Assembly: GCA_030018265.1 (NCBI GenBank)
Contig: JASEFX010000001.1
Coordinates: 228 to 53,531 of the forward strand
Origin: Candidatus Saccharicenans sp.
Lineage (GTDB): Bacteria; Acidobacteriota; Aminicenantia; Aminicenantales; Saccharicenantaceae
Direction: 5' to 3'
DNA length: 53,304 nucleotides
The notes under the pieces are model-generated. The model was given only the letters and a program-made list of their open reading frames with translations, ran no database searches and was not told where the DNA came from. Made by a program: the position numbers and the translations under genes. Shown piece after piece: positions 9,546-16,925 of the stretch. Each line of letters opens with the position of its first letter. Position 1 is the stretch's first letter.

Positions 9546-11237
9546 ATGACTATCTGGAGAAAATTTTTTGCCCTTATAATTCTGGCGATTACTATTTTCA
9601 TCTCAGCTATACCTTCGTTTTCGCAGCTCAAAACTCCAGCCGAAGAAACCAGATACACCAGATACAGCCAGTATGAGGATGTGGCCAGATTTCTCTCGAT
9701 GCTCGAAGCCAGGTCTCCGGTGGTAAAGGTGAAAATTGTCGGACGCACGCGGGAAACGGAAAAATATCCTTCTCGCGACCTGCTGCTGTGTGTTTTAACC
9801 GAGGAGGGGGTGAGTGAGCCGTCTGCCTTCAATAAAAACAAACCCACTGTTTTGATCATCGCTTCCCAGCACGGCAACGAACAGTCAGCCAAGGAGGCTG
9901 CCCTGAGGTTGGTCAGGGATGTGGCCGTGGGGGAGCTAAGATCGTTGCTGAAAAAAATAAACCTTCTGGTGATTCCTCAGGCCAATCCCTTCGGCAACTA
10001 CTTTGACCTCCGTCAGAACGAGGACGGCCTCGACCTCAACCGGGATCATGTGAAACTCGAAGCTGAAAGCACCCGGGCGCTTCACCGGGTCTTTTCCATC
10101 TACCGGCCCGAAGTCACCATCGATGTTCATGAGAAAGGAGACGATTATTACCGGGTTTCGATCGGCTGCGTTTCTAACCTCAACATACACAGATCGCTTC
10201 AGGATTATTCAAGAAACGTAATTCTGAAAACGGTCGAGAAAAAACTCCAGAAAAAAGGAATTCCTTTTCATGAATACCTGGTGAGCGATGTTATCGGTCT
10301 CGACACTTCCTCGGGAGCCAGGATGAGCGAACCGGCTAGCGGTGAAAGGATGCTTCGTTTCAGTACAACAGACCTGAATGACGGCCGCAACAGCTTCGGA
10401 ATATACGAAACCCTGTCATTTATTCAGGAAGGCGCTTCCCGCCATGACCTGGCCACGCTCGGAGAAAGAACCGGATGGCAGTATGAAGGGTTGCGCGCTT
10501 TTCTGGAAACGGTCGCCGACCGTTCCATGGAAATCCTGAAGATGGTCAGAGACCTAAGGTCCGGTCTCCTGGAAAGGGCGCAGACAAGAGCTGCTGACGA
10601 CCCGGTGCATTTGAGAATGGCTTATGTTCGCGACCCGCAGCAACCGGAGCTGGTGATAAAAGCTTTCGAAAGAACCACCTCCAGCATCAGAGGAATTCTT
10701 AAGGTCGATAAAAGAGCAGGCGATTACCTTCTGGTTGAAGATATAATTCCTTACTCTGGTCCTCAGAATCAGAAGGTTATTACTGTGACCGAGAAAAACT
10801 GGTTCCCGCTGGTGGAATCAAGGCTTACGGTATCACGCCCGGCTGGCTATGTCATACCGGGCGAAAGAGTCGATATCGCTGAGGTACTTGTGCTGCACGG
10901 GATCAGGGTGCAGATGGTGGAAAAGGCGGTCATGGCAGAAGTGACCGCTTACAGAGTGAAAGAAATTATTCCAGCCAGAGCTGATTATCTGGCTCCTCAG
11001 AAAATCGAAGTGGAAGCAGAAAAATTGAAACTTCCTTTGAAAAGGGGAGATTTTTATGTTTCCTGCGAACAGCCGGCAGCCAACCTGATCCCCTGTTTGC
11101 TCGAACCGCAATCCGAGTACGGCCTGATCCGGTACTTCAGGTTCCAGCTCGTTCCTGAAGCCGGGGACTGTTTTTCAATCTACCGGGTGGAAACCACACC
11201 CTCCTGGCCTCTGGTTGATTTCAAGCCGTGGAAGTAA
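9546..11237 (+). CDS. Exported M14-family zinc carboxypeptidase
   Basis: Predicted periplasmic or secreted metallocarboxypeptidase of 563 residues. A signal peptide covers about residues 1-27. The catalytic domain shows zinc ligands His109 and Glu112 (QHGNEQ) and His195 (IDVHEKG), with the substrate-binding DLNRDH motif between them and a candidate general-base Glu in the SFIQEGAS region. After the roughly 330-residue peptidase domain comes a 200-residue C-terminal extension with beta-rich character that I do not recognise. GGGAGGAG precedes the ATG and the gap to the ChaN-PDZ gene is only 35 nt, so the two exported proteins are probably co-transcribed. Confidence 0.88.
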   Translation: MTIWRKFFALIILAITIFISAIPSFSQLKTPAEETRYTRYSQYEDVARFLSMLEARSPVVKVKIVGRTRETEKYPSRDLLLCVLTEEGVSEPSAFNKNKPTVLIIASQHGNEQSAKEAALRLVRDVAVGELRSLLKKINLLVIPQANPFGNYFDLRQNEDGLDLNRDHVKLEAESTRALHRVFSIYRPEVTIDVHEKGDDYYRVSIGCVSNLNIHRSLQDYSRNVILKTVEKKLQKKGIPFHEYLVSDVIGLDTSSGARMSEPASGERMLRFSTTDLNDGRNSFGIYETLSFIQEGASRHDLATLGERTGWQYEGLRAFLETVADRSMEILKMVRDLRSGLLERAQTRAADDPVHLRMAYVRDPQQPELVIKAFERTTSSIRGILKVDKRAGDYLLVEDIIPYSGPQNQKVITVTEKNWFPLVESRLTVSRPAGYVIPGERVDIAEVLVLHGIRVQMVEKAVMAEVTAYRVKEIIPARADYLAPQKIEVEAEKLKLPLKRGDFYVSCEQPAANLIPCLLEPQSEYGLIRYFRFQLVPEAGDCFSIYRVETTPSWPLVDFKPWK

Positions 11238-11246
11238 ATTAACCGG

Positions 11247-14200
11247 CTAAAAGTCCAGAATCTTCTTAAGTTTATCCAGTTTATCTCTGAATTCAGGCGC
11301 CGGGTTGAGTTCGACCGGTGAAGAAATATGGAGTTTTCCCGCCTTTTTAAGCGCCAGCTGATAAAACCCGGCGTAAGGTCCTGCCGGGAAATCCCGGCTG
11401 TAATCAATTATCTCCTGGTATTTCCTCAGTGCTTCTTCCTTCCGTCCAAGTTTTTCCAGACAGAGACCCTCAAGATAGTCCTGAATTCTCTGGTCCGGGT
11501 TGAACGGCCGGCCGGTTCCCAGAGTCTCGGGATATTCTCTCGACCTGGAAATTTCAGAAAGGGCTTCTTCCCATTTTTTCTCCAGCATGAGCTCCAGCGC
11601 TGAATGAAGATGAGCACGGACGAAAAGCTGGTGGATTTCGCTCGCCCCTTCATACGGAAGAACCTTCATTCTATCAAGCAGCCCGGCTGCCTCCCGATAG
11701 CGGCCGCAGGCCAGGAACGCTTTGACCGCATCCGACTGAAGATAGACATTATCCGGGAATCTTTCCAATGCTTGGAGTGAACCTGAAAGAGCAAGATGAT
11801 AGAAACCGCGCGAAAGCTCGTGGTTTAAAAGATGATGCCAGGTTCTCCAGGATTCCGGAGAAAGCTCGCGGGCTTTCTTTAAGTCGCGGTATGCGGCTTC
11901 CTGATTTTCAGAATTGAGGTAAGCTCTGGCGATAAAAACCGGATAATAATCTGCCCGGTCCAGGGTGGAAAAGATTTCTCTGGCCTCATCCAATCGCCCT
12001 TTGTGCCAGAAAATCAGCCCGAGATAGTAACGGAATTTCCAGCAATCTGGCTTTTGAGCTGAAGCCCATTGAAACACCGGGATGGATTCTTCGCGGAACG
12101 GAAAAACCCACCAGGGGGAGGCTTCAGCCGCCCGGTTTAACGCCTCCAGGCTAGCATCTTTCCGGTTAAGTTTATCCAGGATGAAAGCTTTCCAGGTGAT
12201 TAATTCCGGATGGGAGGGGGAAAGCTCGAGCAGGTTCAGGCAGGTTTCCAGCTGGCCGGTTCGGAAATAATAAAGAGCGAGTTCAAGGTATGTTTCTGCC
12301 GGAAACTCATTGCGAATCATCCGCCGGAAATTTTCAAGCTGTTTTTTCCGCGATTTGAGCAGATAGAGTTCATAACGGGCTAAATGGTTCAGAGGGTCGA
12401 GCGAAAGAATCAAACCGCAGGTTCTGTCCGCTTCCTCCTTTCTGCCCTGAAGTCTGAGCACTGAAGCCAGAATTTCCAGCGGAAGGGGGTTCTGGCTGTC
12501 GTACCGGGCTGCTCGTCTGGCGAATTCTTCGGCTGCATATAAATTTCTTTCCAGGAGGGATATTTCCGCCAGACGAAGGTAAGCAGGAACAGCCAGGGCG
12601 GGGGAGCGGGCAGCCCAGCCGAAAGCTTCCCTGGCTTCAGTCAGAAGATCGAGCTGAAGCGAAGCCAGCCCGTACACGTAATTAGCTTCCGGGTCATACA
12701 TCGAAATTTCCAGAGCCCGGCGCGCATAATCCAGAGCTTTCCTGATTTCATGCCGGCGGCAGTACAGCTCGGACAGGCGGCAGAGAGCTCTCAGGTGGCC
12801 TGGCTCTTTTTCAATTACCCTCAGATAAAGATCGAGAGCTCCGCTATAATCCCTTTCGTTTTCCAGCGTTTGAGCCGCCAGGAAAAGGCCTTCGACTGAA
12901 CTGCCGGAGGGTCGCTGAAATTTGAAAGGACGAATAAGCTCCCTGGCTGAAGCCGTTTCGCGGATTAATTTCTGCCCGAGATAAACCTGAAGATTGTCCG
13001 GATTCTTCACGCCCTTCAGCTGGATTTTAATCTTCTCTGAGGGACGAAGAATTATTTCCTGATTGATAATTTCCCGGTCGAGCTCCTTCACCACCAGTTT
13101 TTCTTTTAGAGGTTGAAGCGCGTAGATTCCGAGCTCATGAGCTTCAGCGACTGGCCTGAGGCTTATCGCAGCCATCCGATCAGCTGAAGTGATCGGGCCT
13201 ATACCGCTGTAGGGAAACCAGATTTCGCTCCAGCTGTCGGAAACTCCCGGGTGAAAGGTGCAGTGATCGGATTGATTCAGAAGTCTTCCAGCCTGGGGCT
13301 CGGTGTACTGCCCGTCAGCATCGGTCAGCAGGTCTACCCAGATTTCTCCGGCCCGGCTCAATTCCCAGATCCATATTTTTTTGCCCGGCATGTCCAGATA
13401 ATGAGCCTGATGGCCGAAGCCGGAATCTGAATTTTCGTAATAACCGCCATAAAAGTGGTCATAAGTTCCGATAACAAAATAACTTTTTGAGCCGCCGAAG
13501 TCGTTTTGCCGGTACCAGGAAAGATCCCTGCCCTCTCTGTCCACCGGCCAGCTTTCGAGCGGCACAGAATAGTCATGACCGATAAAATATTTTCCGGGGA
13601 AAATGTATTTAAGGTCAGCTGTGGCCGGGACCGCCGCGCACATCCAGGAATAGTATGATTGACGGTAGGGAGTGGGATTGGTCCAGCGGCTGCAGGTTTC
13701 AAAATAAGCCTGGTCCGGATGCAAGGTGATTCTGACCTGCCAGCGGCTTCGGGATGGCCAGTCGTAATTGCCGACAACGCAGGAAACGCTCCCGTCAGGC
13801 TTCTTCTCCACCAGATAATCAACCGGGGTAGCCGTGGCCGGGGAATGACCGATTATGCCGAAATTGAATTCTATCCCGCCGGAAGTCCATGGTCCCCGCA
13901 GGCCAATTTCTCTGAATTTAAGCACCCGGTTGGTGTAAAGAAAATTCTTTCCGCTAATTAAATCCTTAGCCCCCCAGATTTTTCCGCCAACTTCCGGTAA
14001 GACGGAAACTTCGAGGTATCGGTTTTTCAACCGAACAACGGTCCAGTTTTGAGGACGAGAGGTGTGGCTGAAGCCGTTAAAGACATAGTAAGGATAAATT
14101 TTCGAACCCGAACCCCAGAGGGAAGATCGAGCAAAAACCGGAATAGGGTCGGGATCATAAAAAGGGTAGGTGGCGATGGTTTCTTCTTTTACGGAGAAAT

Positions 14201-14387: not shown

Positions 14388-15311
14388 CTATTTTTTATCC
14401 ATTATTTCCTGATAGATGATTTCTACCAGAGGCGGCCGACGAACAGGGGTCCCGGCTGCCGGAGCTTGAACACCAAAGGCTTCTTTGATCTCTTCAAGAG
14501 TTTTTCCCTGGTTGATCAACTCGCGAACGCGGGCTTCTTTTTCTTTCAGGCTGGATATAAGTTCTGATACCTGCTGTCTTCCAGCCGGATCAGCGTGTCC
14601 CGAAAGGAAAATTTCTATTTCGGGCTTATAATCCAGCATGGCCTGGAGTGTTTTCAGGTAACCGAAAAAGGTTCCGTTTTTGTGTTTGTGAATGAGCGGG
14701 TCGCGTCCGAAGAACATCAGGTCGCCTGTTATGGCCACCCTGGCTTCAGCGATGAAAATTATCGTATCCCCGCTGGTATGAGCCGGTCCGAAATTTTTCA
14801 GCTCGAGCCTGGTTCCTTCAAAATCGATGATTCTGCTATCCTCATAAGTTTCAGTCGGAAGAATCTCTTTAAGTTCCGGAGTCTGTTCCACCAGCGGCAG
14901 CATTTCTTCATAAGTTTTACGGTGAGCCAGGATTTTTACCTTTCCTTCAAGTCCTCGCAGACCGTTGATATGGTCGCCATCGCTATGAGTCAGGACTATC
15001 ATCCCGAGCGGAAGCGGCGATATTTTTTGAATTTCCTCCAGCATCTGTCGGAAAGAATCAGCCGTCATTTTAGCGTCGACCAGAAGATTGCTTTTTTTGC
15101 CTGGTATAAGAAAGCAGTTTGCCCCCGAACCTCCTTTGATAAAGTATATATTACCTTTAATCTTTACTATGGAGATAGGAGGGGGAGAAAAAGTCTGCTG
15201 AGAAAAATTAATCACCGGTTTCAGAACAAGACAGATGATGAATACTGTGGATATCAGAACCAATCTGGCCTTAACCCTGAAAGCTGGGTTCTTTAAGATT
15301 GAAATTACCAT
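14388..15311 (-). CDS. Exported MBL-fold metallo-hydrolase
   Basis: 307 residues from the ATG at 15311, chosen because AAGGAGG precedes it by a few nt; the frame stays open to 15584 but that extension lacks signal features and runs antisense to a decayed gene. A hydrophobic signal or anchor is at residues about 12-35. The metal motif is THSDGDHINGL, an HxDxDH version of HxHxDH in which the second His is Asp, as in several glyoxalase II-like branches. A downstream HTSGDTI and the SGHADP motif supply further metal ligands. The C-terminal helix resembles Zn-hydrolases acting at the cell surface. Substrate unknown. It lies 90 nt upstream of the DUF5107 gene on the same strand, so co-transcription is possible. 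Confidence 0.82.
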   Translation of the reverse strand: MVISILKNPAFRVKARLVLISTVFIICLVLKPVINFSQQTFSPPPISIVKIKGNIYFIKGGSGANCFLIPGKKSNLLVDAKMTADSFRQMLEEIQKISPLPLGMIVLTHSDGDHINGLRGLEGKVKILAHRKTYEEMLPLVEQTPELKEILPTETYEDSRIIDFEGTRLELKNFGPAHTSGDTIIFIAEARVAITGDLMFFGRDPLIHKHKNGTFFGYLKTLQAMLDYKPEIEIFLSGHADPAGRQQVSELISSLKEKEARVRELINQGKTLEEIKEAFGVQAPAAGTPVRRPPLVEIIYQEIMDKK

Positions 15312-15339
15312 GGAGCCTCCTTCATTGATTCCTGTTATT

Positions 15340-15348
15340 TTTATACCA
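15340..15348 (-). promoter_or_regulatory. Candidate extended -10 promoter for the MBL hydrolase
   Basis: On the minus strand TGGTATAAA (TGn plus TATAAA) lies about 29 nt before the ATG at 15311. No good -35 element is visible at 16-18 nt spacing, so an extended -10 promoter is the best reading. Confidence 0.35.
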
Positions 15349-15356
15349 CAGGCTAA

Positions 15357-15958
15357 ATTAAAATTAAACAGCCTGACCGCGTGGATGAAGAAGTCAGCTG
15401 TTCCGGACCGGGGCCCTTTGATGCCGGGTTGATCCCGTCCTGCGATCTGTGGTTGCTGGAAATAGTCCGACCTTTTGAAACCTGGCTGGCTGTGGGCAGG
15501 ACAGGGGATAGGGAAAATAAGGTAAGTTTCTCCGACCGGGGCTTTACGAGCAGAAAGAATATCCTGTTTTTGAATTCCGGTCAAAAAAGTTGGTCTGCAG
15601 TTTCGCCCGGGGATTTAAGCCCGGGCTGCTGGACCCGATTTATCGCTCGCAGTGTTTTATAATTCGAGAAAAGCTGGACCGGCCTCAACTGCTGGCTACC
15701 AGCCGGCATCTGACCGGCGGGGAGCCTGATCTGCTGGATATGAGCCGGGAGGACCGCTATTAATCGGGAAAGAGTCTATTAACCGCAGGGGATCCTTATG
15801 ATTTTTACATTTACCTTCCACCCGGGTGGGATATGGATAAAATTGTGGTAGACGGGATTCAGCCCGAAAGCATAAGGAAAGAGGAGCCGCTCCGAATAAT
15901 ACTTAAGTCTGAAGCCATGGCAGAGGTCGTCTGGAAAATTACATTCTCCAGAACATAA
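15357..15958 (+). pseudogene. Decayed 3' remnant of a glycoside-hydrolase-like gene
   Basis: This otherwise empty interval reads as the C-terminal tail of a real protein only when frames are stitched. Frame 15357-15539 gives CDLWLLEIVRPFETWLAVG and ENKVSFSDRG. The text then continues one frame over from 15539 with GLYEQKEYPVFEFRSKKLV, REKLDRPQLLATSRHLTGG, an in-frame TAA (15761-15763), then SGKSLLTAGDPYDFYIYLP and WKITFSRT, ending at a TAA at 15956-15958. The join sits in a G-run (15538-15541) and looks like a one-base loss; the TAA replaces what would probably be Leu in an LSGKS motif. The style resembles the C-terminal beta-domain of alpha-galactosidase-like glycosidases. Family assignment is tentative. 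No 5' part, start codon or catalytic domain remains. Confidence 0.6.
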
Positions 15959-15978
15959 CAGCACTTCAGGACTGTAAT

Positions 15979-16025
15979 AAAGTCAGCCGTTGCTTCTTTA
16001 GCGATTGGTCTGAACATCTGACTTT
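15979..16025. repeat. Long-loop inverted repeat between the decayed gene and sucD
   Basis: AAAGTCAG (15979-15986) and CTGACTTT (16018-16025) form an 8-bp perfect inverted repeat around a 31-nt loop, just past the 3' ends of the pseudogene (+) and sucD (-). No strong T-run follows on either strand. It could be a weak bidirectional 3'-end structure. Confidence 0.3.
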
Positions 16026-16043
16026 CCTGGCCGGTGCGTTTAT

Positions 16044-16925
16044 TTATTTTTTTAAAGACAGCGCTTCCGCGGTCATCAGCCCGATTCTGGCCGGGTTATC
16101 TATTATTCTGACTCCGGCTGCTTTGAGTCGTTCGATTTTCTCCCTGGCCGAACCCTTTCCGCCTTCGATGATGGCTCCGGCATGGCCCAGACGTTTTCCG
16201 GCCGGGGCTGTGATTCCGGCCACATAGGCCAGAACCGGTTTAGGGTAAGGGGAGGTCTTAAGATAATCCGCGGCTTCTTCCTCGGCGCTGCCGCCTATCT
16301 CTCCGATCAGGACCACAGCTTCCGTCTGCGGGTCGTGTCTGAACAGCTCAAGAAGCTCGACAAATTTCAACCCGACAACAGGGTCTCCGCCGATACCAGC
16401 CGCGGTTGACTGACCGAGCCCGTTTAGGGTCAGCTGGTGCACCGCTTCATAGGTCAGCGTACCGGAGCGGGAAATGATTCCAACCGGACCGGGCTTATGA
16501 ATATGCCCGGGCATTATGCCAACTTTGCTCTTTCCCGGCGATATCACACCCGGAGTATTCGGTCCGATCAGGTCCGCGCCGTATTTTCTCAGCCAGCTTT
16601 TAACCCTGATCATGTCCTGGACCGGTATTCCTTCAGTGATGCAGACGATCAGCCGGATTCCCGCCGCCGCCGCTTCCATGATAGCTTCAGCGCCGGCAAG
16701 AGGGGGAACGAAAATGACCGAAACATCAGGTTTTTCGGCATTTACCGCCTGTTCAACCGTATTGAATACCGGAAGGCCGAGATGTTTCTGCCCGCCTTTT
16801 CCTGGAGTGACGCCGGCCACCACTCTGGTTCCATACTCCAGCATTCTCTGAGTATGGAATGTGGCCTCCCTTCCGGTTAAACCCTGCACCAGAACCCTTG
16901 AATTTTCGTCTATCAAAATGCTCAT
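16044..16925 (-). CDS. sucD: Succinyl-CoA ligase, alpha subunit
   Basis: CoA-binding and phosphohistidine subunit of succinyl-CoA synthetase, which interconverts succinyl-CoA and succinate with ATP or GTP formation in the TCA cycle. The Rossmann-type N-terminal CoA domain ([16 protein letters not shown]) and the ligase domain are complete. The active-site histidine is His248 in [14 protein letters not shown]. 293 residues is the standard length. Its ATG overlaps the sucC stop by 4 nt (ATGA type), so the two subunits are translationally coupled. It is the last gene of the minus-strand icd-mdh-sucC-sucD group. Confidence 0.97.

Follow-up and report, generated by a model that had tools for sequence, protein, structure and literature searches.

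A remnant of a GH36-type alpha-galactosidase-like gene in Candidatus Saccharicenans sp., and a second remnant with other breakpoints in a congener

Introduction

Does the longest gene-free interval in a 53,304-nucleotide stretch of DNA from Candidatus Saccharicenans sp. (the whole of which we call the window) hold what is left of a gene and, if so, which gene was it and how was it broken? A sequence-only reading of the window had described two overlapping frames in this interval as the C-terminus of one alpha-galactosidase-like protein, interrupted by a frameshift and a TAA and lacking its 5′ part. A decayed carbohydrate-active gene of this sort is missed by a list of open reading frames (ORFs) alone. 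Among the matches listed, the locus is unreported in the literature on Saccharicenans, on GH36 pseudogenes, on glycoside hydrolases of Aminicenantes and on gene loss in MAGs.

We conclude, with high confidence, that positions 15375–15958 are a pseudogene of an exported GH36-type alpha-galactosidase-like gene, broken after its lineage split from that of the nearest genome with an intact copy. This is an ordinary pseudogene, the product of a known kind of event, and it alters no general understanding; what is new is that a congener holds a remnant of the same gene with different breakpoints.

Materials and Methods

The window comes from a draft MAG (G000; 105 contigs, 90.64% complete), in which the site lies within a contig of 171,863 bases. 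Nineteen genomes of the genus were searched, G000 included. The site comparison covered G000, G002, G004, G005, G006, G008, G009, G010, G011, G012, G014 and G015; in the other seven (G001, G003, G007, G013, G016, G017 and G018), no adjacency of the flanking MBL-fold and sucD genes was seen. The nearest intact copy belongs to the MAG Candidatus Saccharicenans sp. Yes71-14 (JASEIU010000005.1; G009), and its protein is referred to as P0001.

Homology searches relied on blastn and tblastn; blastn and MAFFT alignments differ near 15913–15920, and a few changes there are alignment-dependent. The Pfam and NCBIfam scan took P0001 and P0004 of the genus (from G009 and G011) and, from the same order, P0005 of G049. 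Changes in the remnant and in the flanking MBL-fold and sucD genes were polarised with G008, G014 and G011 as outgroups, setting aside differences between G000 and G009 at which the three outgroups did not agree (36 for the remnant; 64 and 69 for the two flanking genes). Trees were built from two and from eight genes, several of the eight being incomplete or missing in some genomes.

Results and Discussion

Position and homology of the remnant

The features of the site are as follows (positions are those of the window).

14388–15311, minus strand: intact MBL-fold hydrolase gene (PF00753), left neighbour, divergent from the start of the lost gene and conserved as a neighbour in relatives
15375–15958, plus strand: remnant of a GH36/melibiase-like gene, equivalent to codons 526–720 of a 720-codon intact relative (blastn, tblastn)
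15375–15378: junction of a deletion of ~1.8 kb, at which the flanking matches overlap by 4 bases (GACC, with one left-side mismatch to G009)
15537–15541, plus strand: frameshift, one base being absent right before GGGG by comparison with four intact relatives
15761–15763, plus strand: in-frame TAA where each of the four intact relatives has a sense codon
15900–15903, plus strand: in-frame loss of three bases, ambiguously placed, near 15901
16044–16925, minus strand: intact sucD-like gene, right neighbour (presumably sucD, judging by its sequence), convergent with the remnant

What survives are the final ~195 codons of a glycoside hydrolase gene that, when intact, has 720 codons and is of the alpha-galactosidase (GH36/melibiase) kind. 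Its blastn match to G009 is identical in 605 of 732 aligned columns and extends beyond the end of the gene. In tblastn, residues 526–593 of P0001 (720 aa) matched the window at 72% identity (E 8.4e-27) and residues 573–720 at 78% (E 3.3e-68, with internal stops); the two pieces are collinear and far beyond chance. One homologue covers the two frames as well as the stop, as had been supposed. Six-frame translation of 15300–16060 and base-level alignment bore out the description of the two frames and the TAA: the first frame runs to ~15537, the second takes over from the GGGG at 15538–15541 and is cut by the TAA at 15761–15763, and the TAA at 15956–15958 is the natural stop. Homologous coding sequence starts at 15375 and not, as first put, at 15357. 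The frame at 15381–15662 stays open for 93 codons and has no Pfam match. In Yes71-14, at the same site and between the same neighbours, the ORF is complete, whereas the window keeps codons 526–720 only, in broken form, with 72–78% protein identity over the retained part.

As the sequence-only reading had stated, this is the largest gene-free interval in the window, at 459 bp against 251 bp for the next (greedy tiling, ORFs ≥90 aa), or 732 bp if the MBL-fold gene starts at the ATG at 15311. The ORF list (14388–15584) has that gene start at a TTG inside the remnant, antisense to it; the alignment of relatives favours the ATG.

What the intact gene encodes

Intact ORFs of 720–721 aa occupy the same site in G008, G009, G011 and G014. 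The Pfam Melibiase family (PF02065) was matched by all three scanned relatives at 36.6, 42.9 and 43.1 bits (cut-off 27), while the same three had no NCBIfam match at E 0.001. A phmmer search of the PDB returned the GH36 alpha-galactosidase of T. maritima (1zy9, E 1.4e-21), with which a KxD motif (FKVD, 368–371) and a RIGxD motif (CRIGTD, 433–438) align, both before codon 526. D371 and D438, which we take to be the catalytic residues, are invariant in 23 aligned homologues; PDB entry 6gwf is titled as a D387A mutant.

An AlphaFold2 model of the intact protein (mean pLDDT 89.5) predicts beta structure at the N-terminus, followed by mixed helices and strands up to ~530, where the last listed helix ends, and then strands only, from 550 onwards. 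The T. maritima enzyme took all of the top eight Foldseek ranks against the PDB and was the best match by E-value; over the whole chain, its TM-scores are low (TMq 0.34–0.36, with an rmsd of 16 at 0.36), and the best TMq in the list (~0.50) belongs to a plant enzyme. It is thus the barrel, rather than the fold as a whole, that supports the family assignment. Some distant relatives on plasmids carry the annotation glycoside hydrolase family 36; all 50 records from the plasmid search fall below 60% identity and none covers 80% of the query. These matches place the intact relatives in the alpha-galactosidase/GH36 melibiase clan, in agreement with the alpha-galactosidase-like family inferred in the sequence-only reading.

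The intact relatives share the barrel region and both motifs with the T. maritima GH36 enzyme (1zy9, 5m0x; D387A mutant 6gwf), but their sequence match to it is confined to residues 221–442, none of which the remnant retains. They are also longer (720 aa against 564–575) and begin with a signal that includes, as read by eye, a lipobox-like cysteine near residue 41. The intact enzyme would accordingly be a lipoprotein, with a substrate of the sort that its family suggests.

Lesions and loss of function

The window matches G009 to ~15378 and then again from 15375, at two G009 places ~1.8 kb apart (blastn). Relative to G009, it has lost ~220 bp of upstream sequence and the first 525 codons, both presumed catalytic aspartates included; the 5′ part is absent, as first described. 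The barrel and both motifs precede codon 526, save at most one short helix, and the catalytic barrel is missing from the remnant. Starting past both aspartates, the remnant cannot be an enzyme: it has no start region, and any product would be limited to fragments of the C-terminal beta domains. We rejected a functional short enzyme on the grounds that both catalytic motifs are deleted. We likewise rejected a transfer of the 5′ half to another part of the assembly, as a tblastn search of the window's own genome with P0001 found no second copy of the lost part and no match to residues 1–201.

The frameshift had been ascribed to the G-run at 15538–15541, but the missing base lies beside the run, whose length is unchanged (GGGG also in G009, G008 and G011; GGG in G014).

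Two marks of a bacterial pseudogene are present: a homologue stands intact at the same site in 4 of the 18 other genus members, and the copy in the window has lost its start and 525 codons and carries a frameshift and a premature stop. On our reading, the ancestor carried, between the MBL-fold gene and sucD, a gene for an alpha-galactosidase-like enzyme of the GH36 type, exported and probably lipid-anchored. Once the window lineage had split from G009, a deletion of ~1.8 kb removed the start, together with the sequence upstream of it and the entire catalytic barrel; the one-base loss, the stop codon, the loss of three bases and changes of conserved amino acids accumulated, probably in the wake of the deletion. 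The 4-base overlap at the junction fits illegitimate recombination without proving it, and a substrate that had become dispensable may have permitted the loss.

Age and constraint

Polarised changes on the window branch and the G009 branch number 43:12 in the remnant and 165:102 in the flanking genes, an excess on the window branch (p 0.021, uncorrected, small sample). On the window branch, 24/43 changes in the remnant fall at codon positions 1–2, against 65/165 in the flanks (p 0.059, uncorrected, not significant); the corresponding count for the remnant on the G009 branch is 4/12 (p 0.20, uncorrected, not significant). Among residues invariant in the four intact copies, the remnant has changes at 14 of 120; with the roles swapped, G009 has changes at 3 of 109. 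These small numbers fit a period of relaxed constraint covering part of the branch after G009 diverged and set no absolute age. The sequence-only reading had called the lesions young, which is plausible in so far as the counts of changes and of altered conserved residues fit decay after that split, but no date follows from them.

Probable independent losses within the genus

Clear remnants were found in G000 and G015. In G015 (L129, 1844–2535), residues up to ~136 are joined to ~619–719, with a TAA, by an internal deletion of roughly 480 codons; the coding match reaches 181 bits, where the best shuffle gives 30.1. A single ancestral deletion shared by the two was rejected, given that G000 keeps codons 526–618, lost in G015, and G015 keeps codons up to ~136, lost in G000. 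Neither set of breakpoints can be derived from the other, and the simplest account is that the gene was lost independently at least twice, or three times if G004 is counted.

The third, probable, case is G004 (L123, ~1690–2221), which at this site would retain a short 5′ stub of the gene; neither the genus protein search nor the DNA search had found anything there. Leader and gene combined gave 45.5 bits in a first test, the highest of 100 block shuffles being 29.2. The leader alone matches the intact loci at 34.6 bits, a score reached by 0/60 dinucleotide shuffles. The coding DNA is marginal (29.2 bits, reached by 1/60 dinucleotide shuffles, maximum 31.9); at the protein level, one diagonal at residues ~31–74 scores 28.9 bits, above all 40 shuffles (maximum 25.4). 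We call the case no more than probable on account of the marginal coding part, clear though the leader is.

The five other genomes with adjacent MBL-fold and sucD genes have no convincing coding remnant: shuffles reached the coding-DNA score in 54/60 trials for G002, 50/60 for G005, 41/60 for G006, 5/60 for G010 and 0/60 for G012, whose score (27.4 bits, shuffle maximum 26.5) rests on one 22-base match. Leader matches above all 60 shuffles, all of them short, occur in G006 (25.6 bits), G010 (29.2 bits) and G005 (24.7 bits); those of G010 and G006 lie in the first 41 bases by the MBL start and are therefore uninformative about the lost gene. The interval compared for G005 lacked ~75 bases; for G010 and G012, it begins where the MBL match ends and may include MBL codons.

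G000 pairs with the intact G009 with weak support (62% in the two-gene tree, 55% in the eight-gene tree). Both trees put G015 and G004 on separate branches around the intact group of G008, G011 and G014, in an order that differs between the trees, which disagree as to whether G004 or G015 is the closer to that group. Together with that of the window, the copies in G015 and probably G004 offer a natural, if small, series of losses of one enzyme in a single genus of MAGs.

Alternative explanations

Two other accounts of the remnant were weighed. The gene might be intact in the living organism and collapsed or mis-joined in the contig, as could happen in a draft MAG of 105 contigs, in which single lesions may be errors of assembly or polishing. 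Here, however, the site is embedded in a contig of 171,863 bases, four unlike lesions occur together, conserved residues have changed more than in G009 and a congener (G015) has a remnant with other breakpoints; we judge an artefact very improbable. Slightly less credible still is that the remnant has been kept for a new use—as a short peptide, an RNA or a 3′ boundary between convergent transcripts. The first piece does remain open for 93 codons and the region is still recognisable, but conserved residues have again changed more than in G009, and G015 retains other parts of the gene. An RNA was rejected on finding no Rfam match at gathering score, and promoters and terminators on finding no clear excess over shuffles (two promoter-like sites against a mean of 1.0, two terminator-like sites against 1.2). 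Decay of the gene into a pseudogene remains our reading.

A second melibiase-like gene

Besides the two remnant pieces, tblastn of P0001 against the assembly that holds the window (G000) matched a distant paralog over residues 202–718 (36% and 30%). This gene (G000:C72:76537-78072; L061, L077, L088) has an open frame of 855 aa, with 36% identity over residues 202–520. Frames of 853–906 aa, matching at 30–32%, occur in G003, G007, G016 and G017, and G013 has two pieces. The genus protein search found no gene of this second kind in the four genomes with the first gene intact, and G000 is the only genome seen with the second kind plus a remnant of the first. Three of the four intact-gene genomes, and six others, have a third kind, whose weaker match is limited to residues 225–309.

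Replacement of the lost gene by the C72 gene is possible in the window lineage; it cannot explain G015 or G004, where the genus protein search found no gene of the second kind. The broader proposal, that this is a site of parallel and possibly advantageous loss of the exported enzyme in at least two, probably three, sampled lineages by different deletions, with the 855-aa melibiase-like enzyme as a possible replacement in the window lineage, strikes us as unlikely, if less so than the two alternatives weighed above.

Elsewhere in the window, ~10 bp (11237–11247) separate an M14-like peptidase gene from a DUF5107-TPR gene. Between the same two genes, G008, G011 and G015 have an ORF of 222 aa, missing from the window, that reads by eye like a glycine-zipper/OmpA-type lipoprotein.
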